Below the pieces are notes generated by a model that ran no database searches, had not been told where the DNA came from, and saw only the letters and a program-made list of their open reading frames with translations. DNA of 64,000 nucleotides. It comes from Labyrinthula sp. Ha (Eukaryota > Sar > Bigyra > Labyrinthulida > Labyrinthulaceae). Location of the stretch: NCBI GenBank assembly GCA_015227615.1, contig JAALGZ010000077.1, positions 35,830 to 99,829 on the forward strand. The letters are read 5' to 3'. The position numbers and the translations under genes were made by a program. Positions within the stretch are counted from its first letter, which is position 1. Every line of letters starts with the position of its first letter. Positions 13,419-54,851 of this stretch are shown here, one piece after another.

Positions 13419-14269
13419 TAAGAGGAGCAGATCAAAGAACTCCATTTATTGAACAGGTTGAAAAAAGTCTTTTGAGAAAGTTAAGACTGAAAGATAGTAA
13501 TGGGACTAATATAGACCTGTTTTCTTCCCTTGTAAAGATTAATCAGCATGATAAGACAATTAAAAAAGTTAGACTGAAAGTGTATGAAAAGCCATATGGA
13601 TTTCATGAAAAACTAAGATTCGCAGCCCAAAATTTAGTAGTTTTATTTTATCTAAGATATACTTAGAATAAGGGAAAAGGCATTGTGACTAAATTTATAC
13701 TAAAAGAAAACTTAGAACCAAGAGTTAAAGTTTGTAGAATGTTGGACATGACAGAAGGTGAAATGAGAGACTGTATTTTGAATTTAAAGAGAGAAAATGT
13801 TTCTATCTCTTTTCCAGCGTTAGCTTATTTATTGGAATGCGCTTTATCTTCTTCAGTTTACTTTTAAAAAAATATATTCTTCCAGAATTTAGTGACCAAT
13901 TTTTTCGAGCTGATCGCATTCTTGTTGTATTTATTAAGTTTAGTCCCTATTTGTAAGTTTTTCATGAAGAGAAGGACAATGGAAGTAACATATATGGATG
14001 AAAACTATTTAAAAATGTATCCTAATCGTTCTGTTGCTATTTTATTAACTCCAAGTATATGTGAGTTTTTTTACTGCTTTAGATATACAAAACCATACCT
14101 GGAAAGAAAAGGATATGTTTGGTTTAGATCCACAAATTGCATCAATAATAAAATTTTTCCATGCAAGGGTTTTGTTAGGGTAATTAATGAAGAGATTTAT
14201 GAAGTGAACATTCAAGTAGAAGCAGATAAAGAAATAATAAAGGCACATTTGCGACCAATGCTTTTATGA
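13419..14269 (+). CDS. Unidentified spliced gene with 30-nt introns (5' end not resolved)
   Basis: Three open segments in one frame: 13419-13636, 13667-13855 and 13886-14269. They are separated by two segments of exactly 30 nt that begin GT and end AG (13637-13666 and 13856-13885). Each carries the only in-frame stop at that place (TAG, then TAA), so removing them gives a continuous protein of about 260 residues. A further 29-nt GT-AG segment at 13390-13418 may precede the first exon. The product is basic at the start, has a hydrophobic stretch (about FFELIAFLLYLLSLVPI, one possible membrane helix) early in the third exon, and ends HLRPMLL. I do not recognise a family. It could be a real gene or a recent pseudogene; the start codon is unknown. 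Confidence 0.45.
13637..13666 (+). other. Predicted 30-nt intron
   Basis: Begins GTAGTT and ends ACTTAG, lies between codons (phase 0), is divisible by three and contains the in-frame TAG. The reading frame is open on both sides. Its size matches the other introns in this window. Confidence 0.5.
13856..13885 (+). other. Predicted 30-nt intron
   Basis: Begins GTTTAC and ends TTCCAG with a pyrimidine-rich end, phase 0, and holds the in-frame TAA at 13865. Removing it joins ALSSS to NLVTNFF in an open frame. Confidence 0.55.
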
Positions 14270-14925: not shown

Positions 14926-15071
14926 TATTGATGCAAGTTTTTTTGCTTATGTTCACGTATTAAGTCTGGTGATACCCACTTTTACAAACTAAACTAACTC
15001 CTACGGTACTACTTTAACTACTTTTACTTTAAATACCTCAACCTCAATACAACATACAAGACACAACAACA
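14926..15071 (-). repeat. LTR A (3' LTR of the left copia element), diverged
   Basis: About 146 bp, ending on the plus strand with CAACAACA. It is alignable to LTRs B and C but with roughly ten differences plus a 3-base gap. On the minus strand it starts TGTTGTTGTG and ends in CAATA-like sequence. The A/T-rich start TATTGA matches LTR B. Confidence 0.65.
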
Positions 15072-16377
15072 CCTTCCCTTCGTTAACGTAGCACTTCTCA
15101 AGAAATTTATTAAACATATTTTTACCACTCAACTTTGTCATTATATCGGACGAGTTTTCACTTGTTAGTACATATTGCAACTTTGTTTTCATAGCAGACA
15201 CTTCCTGGGCAACATATTTATATCTGGTGTCAAGATGCTTTAATCTTCCGGTCGCAATTTCTCCTTGGCACAATCTAAGAGCTGGCTGGTTGTCAATCAA
15301 AATCACCGCCTTAAAGTCAACATCCATTTCCTTCAGCAGGCTATAAATAACTCTCAGATCTTTTATAGAACAGCTTATACCTACATATTCTGCTTCTGTA
15401 GATGATGTAGCTACGATGGGCTCTGTCTTCCTTCTATATAATACAACATTATCATTGAGAAGGATCAGATTTCCGTATACACTTTTTTGATCTTCACCAT
15501 TTGCATGTGAACTGTCAGTGAGTAAATACACTGTGTTCGCTGAATCTTTTAAGGACTCGTATTTCAGCTTCTTGTTTCTCGTTTTAAATAAATACATCAG
15601 TGCTCCCTTTGATTGTTCCAGACAGTTTTGAGTCGGGTTCTTCAGTCTAGTTGACAACATGTGAATACAAAAGCTCATTTCCAGTCTTTCGCAGACTGTT
15701 ATGTAGTTCAGCAGAACTACAATTTGGTGGTATTCTCTTACAACATAAAGCTTGTTTGTGTCGTCAGCAATATGATCCTTATTCATTGGCGTTTCCAGTT
15801 TGTTCTTCGACACTTCCGGTCGATGTTGTTGAAAACCAATCACAATTTGGTTATGTAAATTTACATAGCATGTCTTATTTTTTCCTTTAATTAAACATAA
15901 TCCCACGCAGGTCTCGGCAACAGGACTAGACGTCAGCTTAAACCTTTCAGACATCATGTTCTCAAGTACATCGACTTCTTTTTCTTCGCCACTATATAGT
16001 AGGTCGTCCACATAGACTAATATAATTAGTTTCTTCTCCCTTCTTTCATTTGTGAACAGACATTTTTCACTTAATAATGGCTTTAATCCAGCTGAAATTA
16101 GGGTTTCGAAAATTGTTTTGTGTACCAATATGGGGTTTAAGTTGTTAGTTATTTCATAAGTAGTTTGAGGAATATGATTGGTTAGATTATATAAATTGAT
16201 TGGATATACATTATGGAAAAAAAGGACAGAGTTAAGAATAATTGAAATCCAACATAAAAACCAATAAAAAAAAGAAAGACAATCAAGACATCGCATATCA
16301 AAGAACGGGATTAGAAGGATATAATCGAAGTTAAGTATAGTAACACTAAACCTCAATAAGTATCCACACATGCGCAC
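15001..16377 (-). pseudogene. copia reverse transcriptase (second half) and RNase H, left copy
   Basis: 458 codons open. KTIFETLISAGLKP leads into LVYVDDLLYSG with the YVDD catalytic box at about residues 122-125. RNase H follows, with LLTDSSHANGEDQKSVYGN and SSTEAEYVGI, then DNQPALRLCQG and RLKHLDTRYKYVAQEV, the usual copia pol end. The first 86 or so codons are not reverse transcriptase: they come from about 290 bp inserted into the domain. The frame runs past the YVN end of the right copy into LTR sequence because the bases after it differ. Confidence 0.8.
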
Positions 16378-16409
16378 TCAGCAGTTTGACGAGATCATCC
16401 TAAACTGTT
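16120..16409 (-). other. About 290 bp of foreign sequence inserted in the reverse transcriptase
   Basis: Upstream the polymerase reads CGLRNVPKIWHK (family: LYGLKQAPRAWY). Downstream it resumes at KTIFETLISAGLKP. The bases between have no counterpart in the family, are AT-rich and change frame. The same insert is in the right copy at about 21301-21590. It has no clear GT-AG ends placed at the break, so an intron is unlikely; a small element or solo LTR of another family is possible. Confidence 0.45.
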
Positions 16410-17306
16410 CTACTTGTGCCATATCTTTGGCACATTCCTCAGGCCACATAATGACGTGCAGATTTTCCAGAAATATTTATTCTCTTCTCTCTTGGGATGT
16501 CCTTTTGGAAGTTCAATAAATATTGGTTTGTTTAGCGTACCGTATATAAATGCACCGGTTATGTCCAACTGACGTAACCAGGTCTTGAACTGTAGAGCAA
16601 TACATAAGAAAATACGTATAGTTGCTACTGGTGCAACTGGGGCGTAATATTCCGGAACTTTTCTTCTAGTGTTTGCTCCATACTTGTTGTTTTTGACACA
16701 TAAGCGAACCTTGGCGAGAACCTCGTTGTTCATGTTCCGTTTAACTTTGAGCAGTTCCCCCAGATTAATCACTTGGGTAGGAGAATCTGGACGTGGTACA
16801 ACTGCAAACGTACTAGTAGTCTCTAAAGATTCGATTTCTTTGATATAAGTTACATACCAAGCTGATGAATCTTTTCCACCATTAATCTGCTCAAAATTTT
16901 GTGGAGGAATAGTTGACAAATCAATATTTGCAGATAAAGAAGAATTTAATGCGTGAAGATTCATGCGACCTCTCTGGCCACTCATAACGTTTTCTTGGGA
17001 TATGTCGAAGCTTCCTAGCGTGTTACTAGATGATTTGTGTAGTGTGAACGCTTCAGTATTTTCAGTTGGTGATGTAACTTGCTCATTTTCCTTCCCTTCT
17101 TCCTTTGAGTGGTCATCGCCAGATAATTCTGCTGTTTCTTCGTGGTGTTCTTGCAGTTTGAGGATATCTTGGGTAGTATGTTGGACAACTTTATCTATTT
17201 TTGGAATATTTGATGCTGTTGAATATCTGGAATTTTGATGGATGAACTTTTCATATGCTGAGTTGATGGTTCCTACTTCGTCTAGCTTAGTTGTTCTTAC
17301 GCGCAC
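16410..17306 (-). pseudogene. copia integrase tail and reverse transcriptase first half, left copy
   Basis: 298 codons. It starts in the linker after integrase and includes the pre-palm stretch STFAVVPRPD. Then comes KTWLRQLDITGAFIYGTLN, the copia motif with the first catalytic Asp, and CGLRNVPKIWHK. The sequence just upstream, out of this frame's start but continuous with it, carries FKLFGVGEYALLCKKKK, the integrase carboxy-terminal GDD-like module of copia. It is broken at its end by the 290-bp insert. Confidence 0.8.
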
Positions 17307-17425
17307 TATCTTCCCATTCTTACAGTTGACACATATACTTACTTTGGATTCGCTGTCTTGACCAAGATATATAACTGGTATTGTGGTTTGAAGCTTTTTC
17401 TTTTTACATAAAAGTGCGTATTCTC

Positions 17426-17971
17426 CTACTCCAAATAGTTTGAACTCATCAAGCTTAGGGTATTTGTTGAATACAAGTTTATATGAAGAAGTTCCGTTTT
17501 TCTGGTAATGCAGTTGTTAATATGGCAGCTGTGGTTCGCGCAGTAGCACCAATATTTCTCAGATATATTTTCTTGGATTAAGAGAGACATCATCATTTCC
17601 AGAAGCGCGCGGTTTTGACGTTCTATTTTTTCATTTTCTGAAGGAAAATATTCATTAGAATATTCTCTTATTATATTTTTCTTAGAACAATATTCATTCA
17701 ACTTTGCAAATTCTGTACCTCTGTCGCTGAAGATGTATTTAACACATTTATTATGAAGCTGTCTTACTCCTTTTATATTTTTTTTTACTAATCCAGATAT
17801 ATGTGATTTATTCTTGACAAGGATAGGTGTTAGAAAACCAGAGTAATAACAAACAATGTGACAGATATATCTAAAGTTGTTGATAGATGATGGAAGTTTT
17901 CCAATTGTGTCGAGATGGATCTTTTCCCAAGGATAAGTGGCTTTCCATAGTTTTGAGGTGTCGTAATTCAC
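17426..17971 (-). pseudogene. copia integrase core, left copy
   Basis: 181 codons holding the DDE core: HLDTIGKLPSS (first Asp), IFSDRGTEFAKL (second Asp) and SENEKIERQNRALLEMM (Glu). It is joined to the upstream zinc-finger frame by a one-base shift in an eight-A run (plus-strand T run at 17980-17987), and to the downstream frame by a one-base shift at a five-A run. Both shifts are identical in the right copy, so they are either old mutations or less likely programmed frameshifts. Confidence 0.75.
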
Positions 17972-17975
17972 CGTT

Positions 17976-18596
17976 TTACTTTTTTTTCTGGAACATCTTT
18001 CCTGCTGAACATCCGATACAGTACGACTGTGTCATTGGTTTGAGCTCAGTGGACAGTATATATCTGACGTTGATATGACCAAGTCTGTAGTGCATGAGAT
18101 CTGTAGCTGAAATATTTAACCGAAGTATTACAATGTTATTTTCTGGGTTGTTTGTTCCATGCAGAAAGAAGTGCCCTTTTTGTCTTTCAAATGTAAATAC
18201 GGTGTAGCCGTTTTTAGTAAGCGTGCTCCTCCTGTGGTCTTTGTGAACAGCATAGCCATCGTCAACTAACAATGACTCGCTAATGATGGTTTGCTTTTCT
18301 TTAAGCATTGGAACATATACTACATCTTTGAGCTGTAAAACTGTGGTATTGAGTAGTAGGATATGTATGTTCCCTTTCACTGTGTCGAAGTTTACCTCTT
18401 CTAATTCTCCAGACAAAGATACTCGAGTTTCAGGGGATGTATTACGCAAAAGATGTTTATCACCAGTAACATGACGTGTCAATCCAGAGTTCAACAGAGC
18501 TTTAATACACAGATTCCTGAATCTGCAGTTGCATGGTTGGTCCTCTACTATATTCTTTCTAATATTTATATTCATTTTTAGGATATTGAAGTTCAA
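17976..18596 (-). pseudogene. copia protease and integrase zinc finger, left copy; protease active site lost
   Basis: 206 codons. ALLNSGLTRHVTGDKHLL aligns with the copia protease motif (L)DSGATxHM, but the catalytic Asp is Asn (codon at 18489-18491). An aspartic protease cannot work without this residue. Farther on, DLMHYRLGHINVRY and SYCIGCSAGK form the HHCC integrase finger. The frame ends at an eight-A run. Confidence 0.75.
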
Positions 18597-18803
18597 GTGG
18601 TATGGAGTTGTTTCATCCTCATCATCAGATGGAGTGAAAGATGGTTCGAGGTTTGACTCTTCAATATCATTGTGGTCACATGTATCTTCGTAATCGTCCT
18701 CTTGAAGAATATTTATTTTATTGACACGGATGACTTGGACAGAACAGGTTTTCCATTTACGATCATTGCTTCCTCACTTCCAGCAAGCATATTCTTCATT
18801 TGG

Positions 18804-18845
18804 ACAAGAGTTGAGTTTGTGTCCAAATCATCCACATTTCATGCA
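18804..18845 (-). pseudogene. gag CCHC zinc knuckle with an in-frame TGA, left copy
   Basis: On the minus strand these 14 codons read CMKCG-stop-FGHKLNSC, exactly the C-x2-C-x4-H-x4-C nucleic-acid-binding knuckle of gag, with TGA at 18828-18830 one residue after the second Cys and Gly. A single change from TGG would give Trp. The same TGA is in the right copy at 24009-24011. Confidence 0.65.
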
Positions 18846-19018
18846 ACGTTTCTTTGGTTGAAATGTTTTCGTGTTTGTTACTTCGGTCTTATTTACACTT
18901 ATTTGCTTCGTTCTTGATGATATTTGTTCTGGACATCGCAAACTCATATTAGATGCCACTTTCAGGAAATACGATATGGTGTCATTTAAGTTTCTGTATT
19001 GCATATTGTCTTGTAAAC

Positions 19019-19697
19019 CTAGAATATGTTATCAGAAAGGTTGAACATGAATTCTTCTTTGATTTCTCTGCTGTCAGTTCCTCCGTCTAATTTAAATTGA
19101 GCAAATCCTTTTCTGCATATGTTTATATAGGAGTTTAGATCACGATATTGAAATTTCTGGAGTCGTAGTTTTGCAGAGAGTTTTAAAGTTTGCTTGTCCT
19201 TCTCATAATGAAACCTGATTGCATTGTAACCTTGGAATAAAGATTCAGCATTGCCCACACAATGTACCAGCTCTACAGTCATGGTCATCGTAAGTATGTG
19301 TTTAACATCACTAACATCACTTGCATATTGGAGTTTAGCGTCATAGAAATGTTCTACTTCATAGCAGGCCACTACATCATCGTCGATTTTTTATACATGT
19401 GCTTTCATGGGTATCTTGAACAAATCAAAATACGCTTCATTGGAAAATTTTTGTTTAGTGTTGAACTGCTGCAATATTGAATGGATTGGAACCTTTAGCT
19501 TTTCGAATCATCTCCTTGGCCACTTCTGAATGTTTTTTGTCTTTCTCTACTAGCTGGTGAGGATGTACATGGTAATTGATATACATAGATAAGTGTTTCT
19601 TTCCAAGATAAGCTAGAAGCGATGCCTGCCACTCTCTGAAGATAACTCTTTGGGTTCCAAGTTTAGGCAACTGATTATCCTGCTTCTCATAGTTCAT
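19019..19697 (-). pseudogene. copia gag fragments, left copy
   Basis: Two frames, 19455-19697 (starting MNYEKQDNQLPKLGTQ) and 19019-19372, together cover a gag capsid. The first includes IFREWQASLLAYLGKKHLSM, like the copia gag start where a conserved Trp follows the LPKL box. They are separated by a frame change and a TAA in both copies. Confidence 0.6.
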
Positions 19698-20259: not shown

Positions 20260-21558
20260 TTAATTAACGTAGCACTTCTCAAGAAATTTATTAAACATAT
20301 TTTTACCACTCAACTTTGTCATTATATCGGACGAGTTTTCACTTGTTAGTACATATTGCAACTTTGTTTTCATAGCAGACACTTCCTGGGCAACATATTT
20401 ATATCTGGTGTCAAGATGCTTTAATCTTCCGGTCGCAATTTCTCCTTGGCACAATCTAAGAGCTGGCTGGTTGTCAATCAAAATCACCGCCTTAAAGTCA
20501 ACATCCATTTCCTTCAGCAGGCTATAAATAACTCTCAGATCTTTTATAGAACAGTTTATACCTACATATTCTGCTTCTGTAGATGATGTAGCTACGATGG
20601 TCTCTGTCTTCCTTCTATATAATACAACATTATCATTGAGAAGGATCAGATTTCCGTATACACTTTTTCGATCTTCACCATTTGCATGTGAACTGTCAGT
20701 GAGTAAATACACTGTGTTCGCTGAATCTTTTAAGGACTCGTATTTCAGCTTCTTGTTTCTCGTTTTAAATAAATACATCAGTGCTCCCTTTGATTGTTCC
20801 AGACAGTTTTGAGTCGGGTTCTTCAGTCTAGTTGACAACATGTGAATACAAAAGCTCATTTCCAGTCTTTCGCAGACTGTTATGTAGTTCAGCAGAACTA
20901 CAATTTGGTGGTATTCTCTTACAACATAAAGCTTGTTTGTGTCGTCAGCAATATGATCCTTATTCATTGGCGTTTCCAGTTTGTTCTTCGACACTTCCGG
21001 TCGATGTTGTTGAAAACCAATCACAATTTGGTTATGTAAATTTACATAGCATGTCTTATTTTTTCCTTTAATTAAACATAATCCCACGCAGGTCTCGGCA
21101 ACAGGACTAGACGTCAGCTTAAACCTTTCAGACATCATGTTCTCAAGTACATCGACTTCTTTTTCTTCGCCACTATATAGTAGGTCGTCCACATAGACTA
21201 ATACAATTAGTTTCTTCTCCCTTCTTTCATTTGTGAACAGACATTTTTCACTTAATAATGGCTTTAATCCAGCTGAAATTAGGGTTTCGAAAATTGTTTT
21301 GTGTACCAATGTGGGGTTTAAGTTGTTAGTTATTTCATAAGTAGTTTGAGGAATATGATTGGTTAGATTATATAAATTGATTGGATATACATTATGGAAA
21401 AAAAGGACAGAGTTAAGAATAATTGAAATCCAACATAAAAACCAATAAAAAAAAGAAAGACAATCAAGACATCGCATATCAAAGAACGGGATTAGAAGGA
21501 TATAATCGAAGTTAAGTATAGTAACACTAAACCTCAATAAGTATCCACACATGCGCAC
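20260..21558 (-). pseudogene. copia reverse transcriptase (second half) and RNase H, right copy
   Basis: 432 codons, as in the left copy but ending at the natural end KCYVN followed by a stop. It holds LVYVDDLLYSG, SSTEAEYVGI and the terminal RLKHLDTRYKYVAQEV block. Its first part is again the inserted sequence. Confidence 0.8.
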
Positions 21559-21590
21559 TCAGCAGTTTGACGAGATCATCCTAAACTGTT

Positions 21591-22487
21591 CTACTTGTGC
21601 CATATCTTTGGCACATTCCTCAGGCCACATAATGACGTGCAGATTTTCCAGAAATATTTATTCTCTTCTCTCTTGGGATGTCCTTTTGGAAGTTCAATAA
21701 ATATTGGTTTGTTTAGCGTACCGTATATAAATGCACCGGTTATGTCCAACTGACGTAACCAGGTCTTGAACTGTAGAGCAATACATAAGAAAATACGTAT
21801 AGTTGCTACTGGTGCAACTGGGGCGTAATATTCCGGAACTTTTCTTCTAGTGTTTGCTCCATATTTGTTGTTTTTGACACATAAGCGAACCTTGGCGAGA
21901 ACCTCGTTGTTCATGTTCCGTTTAACTTTGAGCAGTTCCCCCAGATTAATCACTTGGGTAGGAGAATCTGGACGTGGTACAACTGCAAACGTACTAGTAG
22001 TCTCTAAAGATTCGATTTCTTTGATATAAGTTACATACCAAGCTGATGAATCTTTTCCACCATTAATCTGCTCAAAATTTTGTGGAGGAATAGTTGACAA
22101 ATCAATATTTGCAGATAAAGAAGAATTTAATGCGTGAAGATTCATGCGACCTCTCTGGCCACTCATAACGTTTTCTTGGGATATGTCGAAGCTTCCTAGC
22201 GTGTTACTAGATGATTTGTGTAGTGTGAACGCTTCAGTATTTTCAGTTGGTGATATAACTTGCTCATTTTCCTTCCCTTCTTCCTTTGAGTGGTCATCGC
22301 CAGATAATTCTGCTGTTTCTTCGTGGTGTTCTTGCAGTTTGAGGATATCTTGGGTAGTATGTTGGACAACTTTATCTATTTTTGGAATATTTGATGCTGT
22401 TGAATATCTGGAATTTTGATGGATGAACTTTTCATATGCTGAGTTGATGGTTCCTACTTCGTCTAGCTTAGTTGTTCTTACGCGCAC
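21591..22487 (-). pseudogene. copia integrase tail and reverse transcriptase first half, right copy
   Basis: 298 codons, one residue different from the left copy (Val to Ile in the linker). It contains the RQLDITGAF catalytic motif and ends at the insert. Confidence 0.8.
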
Positions 22488-22606
22488 TATCTTCCCATTC
22501 TTACAGTTGACACATATACTTACTTTGGATTCGCTGTCTTGACCAAGATATATAACTGGTATTGTGGTTTGAAGCTTTTTCTTTTTACATAAAAGTGCGT
22601 ATTCTC

Positions 22607-23152
22607 CTACTCCAAATAGTTTGAACTCATCAAGCTTAGGGTATTTGTTGAATACAAGTTTATATGAAGAAGTTCCGTTTTTCTGGTAATGCAGTTGTTA
22701 ATATGGCAGCTGTGGTTCGCGCAGTAGCACCAATATTTCTCAGATATATTTTCTTGGATTAAGAGAGACATCATCATTTCCAGAAGCGCGCGGTTTTGAC
22801 GTTCTATTTTTTCATTTTCTGAAGGAAAATATTCATTAGAATATTCTCTTATTATATTTTTCTTAGAACAATATTCATTCAACTTTGCAAATTCTGTACC
22901 TCTGTCGCTGAAGATGTATTTAACACATTTATTATGAAGCTGTCTTACTCCTTTTATATTTTTTTTTACTAATCCAGATATATGTGATTTATTCTTGACA
23001 AGGATAGGTGTTAGAAAACCAGAGTAATAACAAACAATGTGACAGATATATCTAAAGTTGTTGATAGATGATGGAAGTTTTCCAATTGTGTCGAGATGGA
23101 TCTTTTCCCAAGGATAAGTGGCTTTCCATAGTTTTGAGGTGTCGTAATTCAC
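22607..23152 (-). pseudogene. copia integrase core, right copy
   Basis: 181 codons identical to the left copy, with the DDE residues present and the same A-run frame changes on both sides. Confidence 0.75.
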
Positions 23153-23156
23153 CGTT

Positions 23157-23777
23157 TTACTTTTTTTTCTGGAACATCTTTCCTGCTGAACATCCGATAC
23201 AGTACGACTGTGTCATTGGTTTGAGCTCAGTGGACAGTATATATCTGACGTTGATATGACCAAGTCTGTAGTGCATGAGATCTGTAGCTGAAATATTTAA
23301 CCGAAGTATTACAATGTTATTTTCTGGGTTGTTTGTTCCATGCAGAAAGAAGTGCCCTTTTTGTCTTTCAAATGTAAATACGGTGTAGCCGTTTTTAGTA
23401 AGCGTGTTCCTCCTGTGGTCTTTGTGAACAGCATAGCCATCGTCAACTAACAATGACTCGCTAATGATGGTTTGCTTTTCTTTAAGCATTGGAACATATA
23501 CTACATCTTTGAGCTGTAAAACTGTGGTATTGAGTAGTAGGATATGTATGTTCCCTTTCACTGTGTCGAAGTTTACCTCTTCTAATTCTCCAGACAAAGA
23601 TACTCGAGTTTCAGGGGATGTATTACGCAAAAGATGTTTATCACCAGTAACATGACGTGTCAATCCAGAGTTCAACAGAGCTTTAATACACAGATTCCTG
23701 AATCTGCAGTTGCATGGTTGGTCCTCTACTATATTCTTTCTAATATTTATATTCATTTTTAGGATATTGAAGTTCAA
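23157..23777 (-). pseudogene. copia protease and integrase zinc finger, right copy; protease active site lost
   Basis: 206 codons with one residue different from the left copy (Ser to Asn). NSG replaces DSG in the protease as in the left copy, and the HHCC finger is intact. Confidence 0.75.
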
Positions 23778-23984
23778 GTGGTATGGAGTTGTTTCATCCT
23801 CATCATCAGATGGAGTGAAAGATGGTTCGAGGTTTGACTCTTCAATATCATTGTGGTCACATGTATCTTCGTAATCGTCCTCTTGAAGAATATTTATTTT
23901 ATTGACACGGATGACTTGGACAGAACAGGTTTTCCATTTACGATCATTGCTTCCTCACTTCCAGCAAGCATATTCTTCATTTGG

Positions 23985-24026
23985 ACAAGAGTTGAGTTTG
24001 TGTCCAAATCATCCACATTTCATGCA
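23985..24026 (-). pseudogene. gag CCHC zinc knuckle with an in-frame TGA, right copy
   Basis: Same 14-codon knuckle as the left copy, with TGA at the same position. Confidence 0.65.
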
Positions 24027-24199
24027 ACGTTTCTTTGGTTGAAATGTTTTCGTGTTTGTTACTTCGGTCTTATTTACACTTATTTGCTTCGTTCTTGATG
24101 ATATTTGTTCTGGACATCGCAAACTCATATTAGATGCCACTTTCAGGAAATACGATATGGTGTCATTTAAGTTTCTGTATTGCATATTGTCTTGTGAAC

Positions 24200-24878
24200 C
24201 TAGAATATGTTATCAGAAAGGTTGAACATGAATTCTTCTTTGATTTCTCTGCTGTCAGTTCCTCCGTCTAATTTAAATTGAGCAAATCCTTTTCTGCATA
24301 TGTTTATATAGGAGTTTAGATCACGATATTGAAATTTCTGGAGTCGTAGTTTTGCAGAGAGTTTTAAAGTTTGCTTGTCCTTCTCATAATGAAACCTGAT
24401 TGCATTGTAACCTTGGAATAAAGATTCAGCATTGCCCACACAATGTACCAGCTCTACAGTCATGGTCATCGTAAGTATGTGTTTAACATCACTAACATCA
24501 CTTGCATATTGGAGTTTAGCGTCATAGAAATGTTCTTCTTCATAGCAGGCCACTACATCATCGTCGATTTTTTATACATGTGCTTTCATGGGTATCTTGA
24601 ACAAATCAAAATACGCTTCATTGGAAAATTTTTGTTTAGTGTTGAACTGCTGCAATATTGAATGGATTGGAACCTTTAGCTTTTCGAATCATCTCCTTGG
24701 CCACTTCTGAATGTTTTTTGTCTTTCTCTACTAGCTGGTGAGGATGTACATGGTAATTGATATACATAGATAAGTGTTTCTTTCCAAGATAAGCTAGAAG
24801 TGATGCCTGCCACTCTCTGAAGATAACTCTTTGGGTTCCAAGTTTAGGCAACTGATTATCCTGCTTCTCATAGTTCAT
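24200..24878 (-). pseudogene. copia gag fragments, right copy
   Basis: Frames 24636-24878 and 24200-24553, matching the left copy apart from one residue (Glu for Val near the start of the second). The same frame change and TAA separate them. Confidence 0.6.
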
Positions 24879-29083: not shown

Positions 29084-31050
29084 ATGGAAACCATTCGAGG
29101 ATCTATCGAAGCAAGCAATCAATTCATATCAAAGAATCATGTAAACCTTAACTTCCGAGCCTTGACTTCCGATGAAATATCCACTTTGAAACAGTTTCAC
29201 AATACTAGTAAAACATTTTCGCCTTAATTTTTCAGGTACTTCTCAGGACTTCAACAATATCAAAGTTCTGATGGAGAATCCCCCTTTGGATATTTCCCTT
29301 TTTCGAAACAACCACTTTTCCGGTTTTATTTTCCTTGGGGAATTTATAAAAAACTCAACAGTAAAAACGAAAGATGGGTTTCCTCTTCCCTGTGGCGTTT
29401 ATAATTCAGTTTTGGATAACTGTGTACTTCTTGGATGTTCAAGAATATCCAACTGTTCTCTAATTTCTACTTGCTATATTGAAAAGAAGTGTATTTTATT
29501 GAATTGTGGAACAATAACTGTAGATTTATTTTTTCATAAGCTTATAGAGAGGTATTTCAAGTTTTGGAATTGGGCAGGATGTTAAAGTTGTGAACTCTGC
29601 TGGAGGTAGAAAAGTTTGCTTCGATCCTGACCTTTCGTTTAACCAAATCTCAAAAAATATTTTATCAAAAGAAAGATATATCTCAGATACTTTAAAATCC
29701 CTTCCAGTTTGCTTTTTCAATATAATCAAAGAAAACTGTTTTCTCTCTTTGACAACAGCCAAAGATATATTCCTAGATAGAAACAATACCTTTGAAAATT
29801 CTACGCTGAAAGATGCTCTTTTCTTGGAAAAAAATAAAGTAAAAAGCTCTACTATTGAATATTCTATAATCAAGAAACAATGTGAATTCACTGATTCCAA
29901 CATTTCAAGAAGTTTTATTTTTCCTGAAACTATTATAGATTCATACGCAAAAATAAAAAGCTCTGTTCTAGGGCCTTTGAGTCATATATCTCAAGGAGAA
30001 GTATCATACAGTGTTTTAGGGCCACTAGTAGGTTTTAATCATACGGCCACTCTTACTGCATGCTATTGGCCTTCTGGTAAAGGCAATGTTTCACTTGGTG
30101 CTTTAATTGGTTCAAACCATACTAGCAGAAAACCAGATCAAGAGTTTTTTTCTGGAGAAGGAATATTTTTTGGATTAGGTTCGATAGTGAAGTATCCTTG
30201 TAACTTACTAGACTCGCCATATAGTTTAATAGCAACTGGTGTCACCGTTTTACCTCAAAAAATATCTTTTCCTTTTAGTTTAATAACCTCTGAGGAAATG
30301 ATTCCTGGTTGGATGTTGAAACAAGGATTGTATACCATATTTCGAAATCAACTAAAGTTTCTTCAAAGAAGTGTAAAGTTACAGAGCTTAATTTTTGAAG
30401 ACTCAAAGGAACAAATAAATTTGATTTGTGGAATATTTAGACCAGAGATTATGGCTCTGGTCTATGAAGCAAATGAAAGGATCAAAGAATATTTTAATAG
30501 TGGAAAAGAAATTGAAGGTCTAGGAAAGCAAATAGTTTCAAAGACTAATTTGAAAGCTGCGAAGGATGTATATACCTTTTGGCTAGAGCTTGATGCACTG
30601 GAAGAAGTCGTTTTAAGAAGTGGAAGTAAAGAAGAGTTGAGAACTGTTCTTGAGGAAATAAAAGAATCATCCTTGATTGATGAGTTTGATATTTTAAGTA
30701 AATGCAAACAAGATAATTCCTTCACTGGTCTTGTATCTAAGAAGAAGTTTACTGAAAATAACAAAGTTCTGAAAGGTAATTGGTGGGAAATACAAAAAAG
30801 TAGTTTGAAAGAGTTAATTACAAAAACCAGCGAAGAAGAAACTTTAATATCTATATATAAAGAAAAACTCGATACAATGCTAAAATATATTGTTGAAGGG
30901 AAAAGAAAAGATGATATACGAGGACCAAAAATACTACCCGAATATTCTGAATATCACATCACGTCGGAAGATGATGATATTGTGATCACAGTAAAGAAGC
31001 AAATAGAGATAAAGAAAGGAGCAGTTGAGAAGAAATTCCAGAATAACTAA
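29084..31050 (+). CDS. DUF4954 left-handed beta-helix protein (bacterial-type family), three exons
   Basis: Exons 29084-29207, 29236-29519 and 29548-31050 give 636 residues, close to bacterial members. The first exon holds FRALTSDEISTLKQFHNTS, the family's opening (LTPEEIxQLxxxGNxA). The second has FSGFIFLGEF and short repeated turns such as NSVLDNCVLLGCSRISNCSL, typical of hexapeptide beta-helix coils. The third has GIGQDVKVVNSAGGRKV, GALIGSNHTSRKPDQE and GEGIFFGLGSIVKYP, strongly conserved in the family, then a helical tail. Such domains resemble the acyl or sugar-nucleotide transferase beta helix, but no reaction is known to me. From memory the family is mainly in Bacteroidetes and spirochaetes. 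The frame joins well across both 28-nt introns. The 3' end overlaps the sorting nexin's stop on the other strand. Confidence 0.85.
29208..29235 (+). other. Predicted 28-nt intron
   Basis: GTAAAA to TTTTTCAG, phase 1, containing an in-frame TAA. Removing it joins the family's amino-terminal motif in one frame, with Ser encoded across the junction. Confidence 0.8.
29520..29547 (+). other. Predicted 28-nt intron
   Basis: GTAGAT to CTTATAG, phase 0. It moves the frame by one, exactly as needed to join CGTIT to the conserved GIGQDVKVVNSAGG block. Confidence 0.8.
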
Positions 31051-48001: not shown

Positions 48002-51000
48002 TTGAGTTTACAGGTTTGATTTGCTGAAGATATTTTAGACATTCTCTTTGTGATAACTCCGGGAATTGACGTTTCATTAAACGGCTCGCATTTCGTTTCC
48101 GTAAGTTAACGGCTAAAATGTGTGAAACAGACGCGTTTTTTTCTATTGAGAAAACAGACAGAGAAAAATAGGTCAACTTGTTTTTGAACCCAAAATAAAT
48201 GATATTTCAGAACATAATATTTGAACAACTTTAATGACTTGTATGAACAAACTAAGTCAATTGTAGATAATTATTCTTATTATCCTCTCATTTCATGGCC
48301 TTGAAGGGCTTGTGACAGTAGTTCACTCTACAAGAGGTGCCCACTCCACCTTTGGAGATTTTATGGCTTCTTTTGGCGAAAGGGGTCCTCGCTTCATAGA
48401 ACTATGTTTAGCTGTTAACTCCTCAAGAAAAAGATATTTGTTCATTAAAGCTTGAGCTAATGTACTGCACCATTTCTGGATTCCCTTAAATCTGTTTCCT
48501 ATTTATCATTTATAATGTCTTTAGCACTGCGAAAATGAGACGTTGTAAACTACGATCTTTTACTAGATACTGCCTTCGTTTATATTAGGTGTATCTTCTG
48601 GGAAAGCTAAATCAGGAGGGTGTCAATGAGATTTAACAGCGTGACCAATGAGAACTCTCCAGCAAGTCTGGAGAAAAAGTAATTTATAAACCCTATATTT
48701 GCTTAAATACGCTCCGGTTTAACAGAAAACAAATAGCCAATTCTTAACTTCATGAAAGCTCGAGAAGCCAGGTTTATTATTTTTTTGCTTTTTTTCTATT
48801 GCACCATCATTTTTTTTAAGGAAGTTGGTTTTAGTTTTTTCTATTTTGAGATTCTAAGTTTTGTTCCAAGGAAGGTACATTCGGTATTATTGCAACATCA
48901 TCCTTCCATCGACAAATTTGTATTTTCCAAGCCAATTACAGAATTTTATTACTGATATAAGATCACCCAATTGTGCCGTTCTTCTACCAAGGCCCAGAAA
49001 CATATGTAACAATTACTATTTTCTGGGTTCATTCTGCAAGTTCTAACAGGTAACTTATTCCACTTTTTTGTTTTTATCTGCTTTCCTTAATTCAACAAAT
49101 CTATATTGAACTTCATAGCTTTGTTCTCACTGTTAATTCTTGAAAGCACTTATAATCTATATTAAGAAATTTATCTGGGTACTTATGTTGTGCATACAAG
49201 AAAATGAAGACTTTTTAAATTTGCTATTTTGCATTTAGAAGGACAAGGGGCTTAAATTCTGGTTTCAGTGTAAAAATTGGATACGACACATTTCAGTATT
49301 AAGAATTAAAAAAAACGTATCCTGTTCCATTACAAAAACACTCCGTATTGAACTTAGAGTAAATAATATATCTCACAAATGCTAGCGGTATGTTCGTGCT
49401 TAATAGATAAATCTTTAAGATGCATTGAAGGCACAATGTTTAAGAAATTTCAACAGGAAATGTTTTTTCGAGTTGGACTCCGGGAAGTGAGAAAACAAGT
49501 TTTTCCTCCGAGTAATAAATATCCATAATAAGAGTGGAAAAATAATGCTTTGAATATTTGAGAGATTGCTTCAATGGGGCATTCAGTTAAGAGTGGGAGT
49601 TAATTGAAAATTCCATCATAATGGCCGCTACGGACTTTGATCATAAAATTTATGCTCTTCGCAAGATAAAGACAGAAGTTTCTAGGTTAGATATAGCCAC
49701 TGTACCCTATTAGATGTATATATATTACGTCTCTAATTCTACCAATAATTCCAATTTAATATTGAATTAATACCTTGGTACAACAAAACCAGTATTTTGA
49801 AATTTTAGTCTGAATAGGTTGGAAATCAAAGTTCCGGTTATATGTGTGTTATGGCAATACAAGCAATATAGTAATATGTAAACATGATAGCACCAAGTTG
49901 GCAAACTATCCAATGTATTCCTTGTAAATTACATAATTCTAAGCTGGCAAATCAGGGTGAAGAAATGAATTGACAGGAGGCAAACATATGTCCAAAAAAA
50001 ACAGCATCATGACTCTTCTGACAAAAATTGTTATTGTTTAATAACTTTTTTTCAAAGCCACTGCTTTCCTACGTAAATGGAAAAAAACAATGTATATACT
50101 AGATTAAATTCTTGGATGAAACATTATGACGGTTTTGTTCTACTCTTACCAGGGTTTTAATACAGACTATATACATTCTTTAGATGGAATGTTAGGTAAG
50201 TTTAAGAATATGAACCTTGAAACAGCGTGGTACCAGAGCTTCCACTTGTATAATATCAAGAACGGAGTGTGCATACAAGAAAGCATCTCAGGGATGTACA
50301 AAAACGAGATGAACGCAATTTACTTTTGGTGTCTCAATCTCTGTGAAAGTATTGCTTAATAATAAACAACTGAACATCCTTCCTATTTATCTACAAGAAA
50401 CATATCTGATTAAATTATTGTTTACAAGGGACATCACAATGGTATTAATTTGATTAATATATGAGAAGTTCAAAAGTGAAAAGTTAATACTAAAGTGAAC
50501 CTAAATAAACTTCTGTAATCTTAAGATTTGGCTATATACAGTAGAAGAACCCAAAAAAGGTTGTGATAAAATTGGATAAACTAAATACAACTATCAACTC
50601 TTGTAATATTGCTTATTTAAGTTTACGTTGTCTGTTCGTATTTTACGGACAGTAGACGGTGAGCGTCTCAGATGAGCATAGTTTATGAATAAGCATCAAA
50701 ATACTAGAATAAATGCATAGCTGGTATCATTTAAGATTTCAAGTACACAAAGAAATGTTACATCAGTTAAAATAGAAAATTAATAAAATTCAAGAATAGT
50801 TATAATGGGGCTCCAAATACATAACATGCAACAAATAATTAGTTCCTACATGTTTAATAAAAACCTGGTGATCATAGCTAAATATTATTTATAATATATG
50901 AAGAGTGGTATTCATGACGAGCATCCAAAGATGAGTTTTAATCTAGGAACATGGATTAAGCACCGGCAAAGCTCGAATGTTTCTACCATAAATACAAATA

Positions 51001-54000
51001 ATTTATATTTGATATTTAATGTAAAAGAAATACTTAGAAATTCAAAGAGTTTGATACATGATGAAAATTTGTTACTTTACACGATTTAAACGAATGGTTC
51101 TCAAAATAACAAAATTAAATTCAAGATTAATAGCAATTGATAAGAAGTTATAAAATGCCGTGATATAGAAAGTCAGACTCTCGTAAAATTATATTTTAAT
51201 TACAACACTGAATAGATGTTTGTATAGCAAAAAAAATATTTTTCGATAGTGCCTTCAGGGGAAACTTTTTCCTGTGACATAAATCCTTTAGTATTGTCAG
51301 TGTGGAAATAGTTCTAAATATGTTAGACTTTCCAAGCCCACTTTTATTTTAACTACTAATAACAAAACTGCGTAGAATCTTAGTCTGAAAACCAATAAAA
51401 CAGAAAACAAGAAAATAATAGATTTTTCAAGTCGAGATTTATTATCAAAAAAGATCAAGCGAAAAAGTGGATATTTGAAAGGAGGTTTTTAGTAAAGAAG
51501 TAGAAACCAAAGAACAAGCTTTGGGAAACAGAATATCAATAATACGAGAAGGGGTTAAATCACAAGGAAAAGAAATGAAAGAACATGTCCTTATTAAAAC
51601 TCTAATATGTTTTCTGTTGTGTCAAAAGTACTTAAGTCTCACATTCTGATCTCAACATAAATTTGCATCTTCTCAGTTTCGGTAATCAAAGCCAATAGTC
51701 TTAAAAGTTCAATTATGTTGAATCAAACATTTGTTTTTTAGACATTACAAACACATGGAAGTACCTATGTTCACGAGACGGAAATAATTTAAATTGATTC
51801 GTCTATTTATCCAGTACCGAATGGGAAACATGGCCAAGTCACAAATATTTTGACAACGTACTCTAACCCAAACTTTAGTGATCGGGTTTAACCGAAGAGA
51901 GAAACCGGTATAATTAGATAGAATAAGCAGATGAAGACACTCTAATATTAGGTTTTTAGTTTTAAGATCTATTTGGTACCTATTAGGGTATTTAATTTTC
52001 TTCTCAACCCACTGTATATTGTACCTAGGTATTTAAAATTGCCGATATGCTCATCGCTGACTTAAACTAAGTATAGGTAGGGACCCTCTTGCATGGTCTT
52101 TTGGCCAGGATTTTTCTTATGGAAACTTTCGATAACACGGCCTTTCAAAGCCTGGACTCAGAAAAACCGATCCCCTCAGGGCGAACTAGAATAAAGTATT
52201 ATGTTATTATTAACAATATGGAGAAAATTTTACTGATTCATGATTAATCTAGGTTAAATTCAGAGTCATAATAGATTCAAAAATCGAAGAATACAAGGTT
52301 GGGATAAACTAGTTTTAGTTTGAAACAGCGGGGAAATGGTTTAATACTCAATACAGGCTGTATCTGTATGACTTATTGAAAGCTCGCCGTTAGATGAGCC
52401 ACTGAAGATATATGTGATTGTAAAGTTAAACACTATGTTGATATCGCCCTTTTAGTTCATTAAAAACTTTGGGGCTTAAATAAGAAAAGACCATATTTCC
52501 AAAAAGTACCGTCCTTTGATTACCAAATAACAACTTATATAAGGCACATTTTAAATAGAAAAAAGGACCTATCAGAAAGAAAATATCCAAAGTTAATTTT
52601 CTAAGGGCAATATTAGGTATAAGGGAGTATATGATTCTGAGTTCTCCATGAAATAGAACAGTCTTTACCTTAATCTATTATGAACTTCGAGATCTAGTTT
52701 CAGCATTTGCTCCGAAGTAAATAAATTTTCTACGGATATATTCTTCTATTACCTACTGTTCTTGTGGAATTTCAACAAGAATAGAGAGCACCATACGTAT
52801 TCCCCGGTTACCTTGAATCTGTTGCAGTTAATCTTCTATTCTAGATTATTTTATATAACAACTGTATATGAAAAATATAAAATAAATTTCCGGGATCTGT
52901 TGCTGTACGGATGAATACACTCTGAATAGGTGTCTCCATCTGAAACGAGAATATGTAATATTGAGCAAAAAGAAAATATATCCTTCATGAGGATAGCTAG
53001 AGCCCTTCTAAACAAGAAGAGGTTCATATACAGGGCGACCAAGAGTGTATTAGAAATTCTAAGCTAAAACATGTTTAAACTGTGGGTAAGTCAAAAGATC
53101 CTTCATAAAAATAACAGTGCTATTTACGCTCCAGATTAAGATCATATCCGAAAAAATGAAAACTGGTGGATCTGCAGGCAAGTAAGAAAAAGAACATGGG
53201 GTAAATGTAGATCATAATCCCAGTACTGAACACCAAAAGTAGACTCAAATAAATGTTCTAATTGTAACTACTTAAAAACGGCTAGACTAGAGCTGTGAGA
53301 GGAATTCCAATAAACTAGCACCAAGGAAGAGTTTAATGGAACAATATTGTACCCATGCTTAATACTAGTTGTAACACTGATCTGATTTCATTTTGTACTT
53401 TTCATATATACATATTCTCCCAATTAAAATTTTATTTTAAAAAGGTCATATGTGTGCAATAGCATAGAAATGTGTAAAGAGTATACACACTGCATCTCAT
53501 AAACCTAAAGGATTTCTAACTTTGTTAAATGGCTTAACACCAAACTATTTCAGCAACTGTAGTCCGACTGAACATAAACCGGCTGGTGATGATTCTCTTC
53601 TTGGCAACATATATCAGGGTAATTGAATACAGTCATGAACTACCATAGTACAAGACTTTTTTGTCGACTGAAACTAAGGCGATTGAAAACACAATTGCAG
53701 AAGCTCTACGTGGTGAACAACAACACCTTTCTCGAAGGAAATATTACTACTACAAACGGAGGCATTCATATTTTCTTCCTTATTTATCTAAAGCTTTATC
53801 TCATCGAGGACTGCAAATTTCCTGCACCAGTTATGATCAAAATCATGGGAGAGTACTTCTCTGTACCAGTCCAATGAAGCCACAACTTCTTTCTTTTTGA
53901 GCTGTTTAGAGTTAATAACCTTATAAATTACGATATATATGAAAAATTTAGTTATATTTAATTTTTTATATTAAAAATATTCAGATTTAAAGTTCGGTCC

Positions 54001-54129
54001 CGAGTCCAAACTTAACGAATACAATCAAAATCAATTTGGAACTGTCTATATATTCAAATTAAACTGTTTGAAAAACAGTATTGCATTACTATGGAAATCG
54101 ACTTGCAAAAATAACGTCGCAGAATTAGA
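48002..54129. other. Long intergenic region, no gene seen
   Basis: 6 kb of AT-rich DNA with short frames only (50126-50359, 53623-53877 and 53661-53900 on plus are the longest). None has a motif I know. Two overlapping plus-strand frames near 53640-53900 may be an old transposon piece. The promoters of the RBR and methyltransferase genes face this region from either side. Confidence 0.4.
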
Positions 54130-54851
54130 ATGAAGTTCCCAGGAAGGCACCATCCATCTTCCCTACGCAACAGAGACCCGATACTTAAGAAATTAATGCT
54201 TATACTTCAAAATAATGACCCAGCAAAACAAAATATTGCAACCAACAAGAAGTTTCTTGAGTTTGCAAGCGGAACAGGAGCACACATAGAACTCTTCAGC
54301 CAGAGCTTTCCAAACTTTACTTTTCAACCAACTGAATATTTGCAAGAAGAAAAAGATTATAATAATAATGTACCAACAGGACATAATATCCTGGAGGTTC
54401 TAAACCAAACTTTTTCAGACAAAACAACCTTTGGTAACGTCTTGGAAGCAGTTAGTGTAAATTTAGCTGCTTCGTTTCACACTTGGAACCCAAGTATAAC
54501 AGTATTCGTTATTTATATTTAACCTTGTAGGCAGAAAAGTTTGATATAATATATGTTTCAAATGTAACTCACATTTCACCGTTTGAAGTAACAAAAGGTA
54601 TATTCAGTTCAGCTTCTAAGTTACTTAATGAAAAGGGATATCTTTTTATCTATGGACCTTTCAAGATAAACAATGAGTTCACAACGAAAAGTAATGAAGA
54701 GTTTGATACGTCTTTAAGAAAAAGAGATCCTTTGTGGGGTTACCGAGATGTTTCTGAACTTGAGAAACTTGCCAATGAAAAAAACCTCAAACTAAATGAA
54801 AAATATGAAATGCCTGCAAATAATTTTCTTCTCTTCTTCTCGAATCTTTAA
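54130..54851 (+). CDS. METTL26: METTL26 / DUF938 family SAM-dependent methyltransferase-like protein, two exons
   Basis: Exons 54130-54501 and 54531-54851 give 230 residues. Exon 1 has RNRDPILKKLMLIL and KKFLEFASGTGAHIELFSQ, the SAM-binding motif I (hydrophobic-E-x-G-x-G-x-G) and family opening. Exon 2 has FDIIYVSNVTHISPFEVTKG, GYLFIYGPFKINNEFTTKSN and FDTSLRKRDPLWGYRD, then MPANNFLLFF, all diagnostic of DUF938. The 29-nt intron restores the frame exactly at AEKFDIIY. The family folds like a class I methyltransferase; its substrate is not established to my knowledge. The E-x-A-S-G-T-G form replaces the usual E-V-G/A-S-G-T-G. The stop is one base from that of the next gene on the opposite strand. 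Confidence 0.88.
54502..54530 (+). other. Predicted 29-nt intron
   Basis: GTATTC to CTTGTAG, phase 0, containing an in-frame TAA. Its length gives the frame change needed to reach the conserved second half of DUF938. Confidence 0.8.

Follow-up and report, generated by a model that had tools for sequence, protein, structure and literature searches.

The window, the whole stretch of 64,000 nucleotides analysed here, is part of contig 129 of a eukaryotic assembly of 50,840,425 bases (50.8 Mb) in 153 contigs. It holds two genes in which short GT-AG segments interrupt a recognizable protein domain, and a further frame that carries two candidate introns:

13637..13666, plus strand: candidate intron of 30 nt (GT...CTTAG, 50% T), whose removal takes out one in-frame stop
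13856..13885, plus strand: candidate intron of 30 nt (GT...TCCAG, 43% T), likewise removing one in-frame stop
29084..29207, plus strand: exon 1 of a DUF4954-domain gene, with an ATG start; the DUF4954 match of the spliced protein begins at residue 24
29208..29235, plus strand: intron of 28 nt, GTAAAA...TTTTTCAG; the DUF4954 match is united across the joint after splicing
29236..29519, plus strand: exon 2 of the DUF4954-domain gene, which alone scores 19.8 bits to DUF4954
29520..29547, plus strand: intron of 28 nt, GTAGAT...GCTTATAG; the DUF4954 match runs across the joint, to residue 167
29548..31050, plus strand: exon 3 of the DUF4954-domain gene, with a hexapeptide-repeat (GlmU-like) region
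54130..54501, plus strand: exon 1 of a DUF938 (methyltransferase-like) gene; this ORF alone scores 39.6 bits
54502..54530, plus strand: intron of 29 nt, GTATTC...TTTAACCTTGTAG; splicing yields one DUF938 match
54531..54851, plus strand: exon 2 of the DUF938 gene, which alone scores 121.6 bits

A first-pass annotation had placed introns at all five of these segments, at the two of 30 nt less surely, on the grounds that they restore conserved protein or an open frame, and each is present with the coordinates, length and GT-AG ends it gave. For three of them, the Pfam domains restored across the joints bear the placement out. Removal of both 28-nt segments of the DUF4954-domain gene gives a protein of 636 amino acids with a single Pfam DUF4954 match (53.3 bits, E 2.4e-14, residues 24-167) that spans both joints. 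Scanned alone against Pfam, exon 1 has no DUF4954 match, and the ORF at 29590-31047 in the third exon matches hexapeptide-repeat families only and not DUF4954; NCBIfam gives the spliced protein only weak matches far under their cut-offs, the best of them glgC-like (E 1.9e-5). The first of these introns also contains a branch-like CTTAAT, whose A lies 8 nt upstream of the 3' end. Removal of 54502-54530 similarly produces a single match to DUF938, which covers residues 7-228 and scores 165.8 bits, well above what either piece scores alone. The two 30-nt segments are a different matter: they remove stops, and the 265-aa frame joined by their removal has no Pfam match at E up to 1, leaving them as plausible but unproven introns that lack homology support.

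The same kind of intron recurs in genes outside the window, where introns of kinesin genes were placed by homology and without a preset length, and those of chaperonin genes and a few others from the frame together with conserved residues. A search of the assembly for the kinesin motor domain gave 30 matches, and 20 loci were fetched. A profile made from the 10 loci whose motor domain is unbroken was aligned, as protein to DNA, with flanks of about 1.5 kb and with a GT-AG gap of any length of at least 10 nt allowed. One locus (L044) proved to be a second view of the gene at L041, hence the 19 kinesin loci in the control run, in which the alignment used 18 GT-AG gaps, 13 of them 28-32 nt long. 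The kinesin introns that we counted come from nine loci outside the profile set. We dropped gaps of 46, 64 and 44 nt, where the frames are open anyway and the gene gains are 4 and 5 bits, and we re-read two longer gaps by eye, one of 111 nt as a 30-nt intron and one of 124 nt as a 31-nt intron with an in-frame insertion of 93 nt after it. Two more kinesin introns, of 30 nt in L025 and 31 nt in L041, come from inspection of the reading frames by eye, the alignment itself having passed them over; in the L025 gene, the two introns that the alignment did place add only 15 bits. Another kinesin gene has a 29-nt intron. Alignments with a lower intron penalty produced spurious long gaps, and such alignments were left out of the counts.

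Mock dinucleotide pairs, substituted for GT-AG in an otherwise identical procedure, do not produce this size class. The four pairs (TG-GA, CT-AC, GA-TG and AG-GT) used 66 gaps between them, of which 5 were 28-32 nt long, versus 13 of 18 for GT-AG (Fisher P = 8.3e-8). The total score gain was 644 bits with GT-AG and 384-512 bits with the mocks, so the mocks repair much damage too, and it is the gap lengths that distinguish GT-AG.

Chaperonin genes tell the same story. A CCT2-like gene (L048) has five introns, of 28, 31, 29, 28 and 30 nt. The first four are visible from split family hits and each joins conserved chaperonin residues, while the fifth is a 30-nt stopless segment that breaks up conserved sequence, in each case as judged against what we take to be the sequence of known chaperonins. 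A second chaperonin gene, from which 301 bases were fetched, has introns of 28 and 31 nt, and a third has one of 31 nt. The metallophosphatase-like gene at L002 contributes two short introns and an ABC transporter gene one; a further 29-nt, frame-forced candidate in L002 was left out of the count for want of homology support.

Could these segments be something other than introns, namely assembly errors that shift frames or create stops, or pseudogene damage, repaired by chance whenever a short GT-AG piece is cut out? Single stops do occur in some mobile-element ORFs, and the metallophosphatase-like gene contains an in-frame TAG that is poorly explained by any 28-32 nt intron, in what is presumably an otherwise conserved purple-acid-phosphatase-like frame. 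However, a near-constant length of 28-32 nt, in segments that are mostly GTA...TAG, T-rich and spread over unrelated genes, is not the pattern that errors leave; the mock dinucleotides do not yield it, and five gaps in a single chaperonin gene each join conserved residues. We consider the error explanation scarcely credible.

Counting the three introns supported in the window and those of the kinesin, chaperonin, metallophosphatase-like and ABC transporter genes, we have 32 short introns from few gene families, with lengths of 28 nt (12 introns), 29 nt (5), 30 nt (6), 31 nt (7) and 32 nt (2). In this small sample, 32 of the 33 introns counted are thus 28-32 nt long, and the remaining one, in an Hsp60-like gene, measures 127 nt. 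Lengths of 30 nt, divisible by three as are the lengths depleted in Paramecium, make up 6 of the 32, a class in which introns without stops are hard to detect by the method used. The first-pass annotation had described the introns as uniform at 28-30 nt and expected a sharp peak near 28 nt in the length distribution. In the genes sampled a narrow class is indeed found, and all 32 short introns belong to it, although it extends to 32 nt and is accompanied by the 127-nt intron.

An obvious concern is that real introns here have a broad length distribution, and that a small sample biased towards conserved domains favours the short ones. The 127-nt intron is one longer case, several of the kinesin alignments lack the first part of the profile and could thus have lost an N-terminal exon on the far side of a longer intron, and some kinase matches are partial. 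Yet the length-free alignment of 19 kinesin loci contains no well-supported intron longer than 32 nt after the two re-readings, and the spacing of split chaperonin hits fits 28-31 nt at the junctions fetched, the 127-nt case apart. A broad distribution therefore seems quite unlikely to us, though introns above 32 nt do occur and more of them may have escaped detection. Introns also seem patchy, with several in some genes and none seen in others. No stops interrupt any of eight HSP70 matches, two of which cover just the first 367-372 of 599 positions, and stops occur in 11 of at least 132 kinase-domain matches (120 of 320 candidates scored); the kinase matches that are partial could reflect introns, insertions or divergence.

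Of the scans that use frames without homology, only one gives a compatible picture, and only at its stricter settings. A scan of 308,547 bases for frame-restoring GTA...[CT]AG gaps, which takes in most of the loci already counted and is thus not independent of them, returned 15 gaps at 28-32 nt, 3 at 18-27 nt and 5 at 33-45 nt at the strictest ORF setting with T of at least 0.4, against 3, 0, 1 and 1 gaps at 28-32 nt for the four mocks. At the loosest setting there is no clear excess in that size range, with 75 gaps against 61, 59, 47 and 83. When frame-restoring GT-AG gaps were sought in two scans with no restriction on motif, chance gaps swamped the signal and both scans were discarded, as was a codon-bias version that was too strict for use. 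Among stop-to-stop frames of at least 150 codons in the sequence examined, overlaps included, 35 end in TAA, 20 in TAG and 17 in TGA; all three terminate long frames, and the standard code therefore fits.

The short introns share a simple anatomy. All 32 are GT-AG, though the search required such ends and would have missed any non-canonical ones. TAG closes 29 of the 32, position 3 is A in 24, and G is found at +5 in just 4. The intron bodies of 28 introns are 55% T and 7.7% G. In these 28 the branch motif is weak, no strong one being seen, and A is commonest at 8-10 nt upstream of the 3' end, with 12 of 28 at each of the three positions. The earlier view that such introns leave no room for a long branch-point tract thus holds for a long tract only, given this A peak and a U2 RNA that keeps its branch-recognition sequence.

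Genes for that U2 RNA and for other spliceosomal RNAs are present in the assembly. U1 is found at three places with equal scores (66.2 bits, just under the cut-off of 69.5) and with its 5' end, AUACUUACCUG, intact; U2 is also found at three places (best 117 bits) and retains the branch-site recognition sequence GUGUAGUAUC; and U6 is found at one place among the matches listed, at 59.9 bits, over its cut-off. The U1 and U2 genes show an arrangement of their own: between about 200293 and 222920 on G000:C96, U1 and U2 on the plus strand and U2 and U1 on the minus strand form a mirrored pair of pairs, and a further U1-U2 pair lies on C135. The U6 gene (L002, G000:C46), beside the metallophosphatase-like gene, is followed by a T run and preceded by a TATA-rich stretch. 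It reads AUAGAGA where the Rfam consensus has ACAGAGA. The ACAGAGA box of U6 pairs with the 5' splice site, and we infer that the change may be related to the missing preference for G at +5. No report of AUAGAGA together with short introns was found among the literature matches listed. With relaxed thresholds, Rfam gave nothing at E <= 0.5 in the window or in the 17 kinesin loci scanned out of 20.

Taken together, the anatomy, the narrow size in unrelated genes and the U1, U2 and U6 genes, all as read from the sequence, point to genuine introns of the major (U2-type) spliceosome that lie near a minimum size of 28-32 nt, and we consider it very probable that this explanation is right as a whole. 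Under such a model, the spliceosome would recognize each intron as one unit (intron definition), and the short distance from end to end would help to offset weak 5' splice-site and branch sequences. Deletion would have worn ordinary introns down to the shortest length that is still spliced, and an intron with cargo that the cell needs would have been spared from shrinkage.

The sparing of cargo fits the sole long intron found. In the Hsp60-like gene, split family hits lie 130 bases apart with one profile position missing, and the locus (L049, G000:C132:1416960-1417280) contains one GT-AG intron of 127 nt between residues that we presume to be conserved in Hsp60. The Rfam family SNORD14 (U14, RF00016) matches 85 nt of this intron on the sense strand, over model positions 1-111. 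The score of 43.8 bits does not reach the gathering cut-off of 64, with E-values of 3.7e-8 within L049 and 1.4e-6 genome-wide, and the next U14 candidate in the genome scores 24.9 bits (E 0.22; 99 of 1164 candidates scored). No other candidate scored in the assembly is convincing as U14. Its C box, closing stem and both conserved domains align with the model, in sense orientation and inside the intron, and its D box is CAGA where the model has CUGA. Outside this U14-like C/D snoRNA the intron has 42 nt, of which 20 nt precede it and 22 nt follow it. The excess length of the one long intron is thus probably a known kind of RNA gene, and its existence means that intron length is not strictly fixed.

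The vertebrate C/D snoRNA SNORD14 (U14) sits in introns of heat-shock cognate genes. As there, the U14-like RNA found here lies in sense direction within an intron of a chaperone gene, but its host is Hsp60-like and not Hsc70, and the snoRNA ends just 22 nt before the 3' splice site. Nothing on such a case was found among the literature matches listed for U14 host genes and for snoRNAs in protists with short introns. Two copies of the SSU rRNA (L023 and L024), on contigs of 10,000 bases each, were found with what we take to be a universal SSU string, and neither offers a clear target for the second U14 domain. Pairing between the 127-nt intron and L024 is no longer than in shuffled sequences (11 versus 9-12), and the assembled rRNA copies look damaged. 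Having no clear counterpart of the site that the second U14 domain usually targets, L024 may be degenerate. In L023 the 5' part, up to about position 1375, is taken up by sequence with no relation to L024, perhaps a mobile element.

The 127-nt intron also bears on whether the spliceosome measures length. It might act as a physical ruler, for which longer introns are unspliceable unless an internal fold, such as the terminal stem of a snoRNA, shortens them. The RNA in the only long intron found does have structure, and its terminal stem would draw the intron ends towards each other, leaving the flanks noted above, but this is a single case, and its 42 nt of open sequence already exceed 32 nt; we regard a strict ruler as unlikely. 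To return to U2-type introns near their minimum size, we tentatively suggest, as a possibility well short of even, that they come in two functional kinds. Cargo-free introns would be fixed at 28-32 nt and cargo introns would carry a snoRNA nearly flush to the splice signals, which, with the U6 AUAGAGA and no preference for G at +5, would describe a spliceosome that reads size and compactness over sequence.

The first-pass annotation had called so narrow and tiny a size class rare, a judgement that needs qualifying, since the class itself is of a known kind to which the present genome adds. In Blastocystis, a stramenopile, the intron mode is 30 bp in three subtypes, accounting for 54%, 36% and 21% of introns, in assemblies of 12.9-18.8 Mb with 85-95% of genes split and with U12-type introns present (PMC5608401). 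The peak near 30 nt is alike in the two, whereas the small Blastocystis genomes with mostly split genes differ from the 50.8 Mb assembly here and its HSP70 matches without stops. Introns of Paramecium are 25 bp long, and components at 36 and 33 bp are described for Oxytricha and Stylonychia; Paramecium and Nyctotherus share ultra-short introns of about 25 bp, compared with 28-32 nt here (PMC5014332). TAA, TAG and TGA are all used as terminators here, and there is no sign of a ciliate code. Trichomonas vaginalis has type B introns of 25-26 nt beside a longer class, few introns overall and a conserved branch motif (CTAAC) near the 3' end (PMC6260720). It shares with the present genome a very short class beside a longer one, while its branch motif is conserved and the one here is weak. 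Smaller still are the introns of Mikrocytos (16-17 nt) and of the chlorarachniophyte nucleomorph (18-21 nt), and in Mikrocytos they occur in a transposon-rich assembly of 49.7 Mb with 33.6% GC (PMC10245619). Stentor has introns of 15-16 nt and a U6 that keeps ACAGAGA (PMC9505925), against AUAGAGA here. The introns of Mikrocytos, Stentor and the nucleomorph resemble those described here in being tiny and tightly constrained, but are about 10-15 nt shorter. A genome with introns of 28-32 nt such as this one is not described among the literature matches listed, and may be in print under another name.

This makes one more genome on the short list of those in which intron size is almost fixed at a tiny value. 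The short introns had been contrasted with intergenic spaces of up to 6 kb, and the lack of any listed ORF of at least 100 aa in 48002-54129 is consistent with spaces of that size. If the genome is as roomy as the window, intron shrinkage would be separable from genome shrinkage. Why some introns stay above the minimum could be tested cleanly on the lead of the U14-like intron, by asking if all longer introns hold an RNA or some other cargo. A changed U6 box alongside weak 5' splice sites raises the question of how a spliceosome finds introns when the sequence signals are poor.

A few further points concern the window. A tRNA search set to the bacterial code found none in it, and no Rfam family reaches its gathering score there. 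On the minus strand, two runs of five ORFs (15001-19372 and 20260-24553) lie about 5.2 kb apart, with four of the five equal in length; these ORF lengths suggest a possible tandem duplication. DUF4954 is mainly a bacterial domain, and its presence together with a GlmU-like hexapeptide region in the eukaryotic gene at 29084-31050 makes gene transfer possible.
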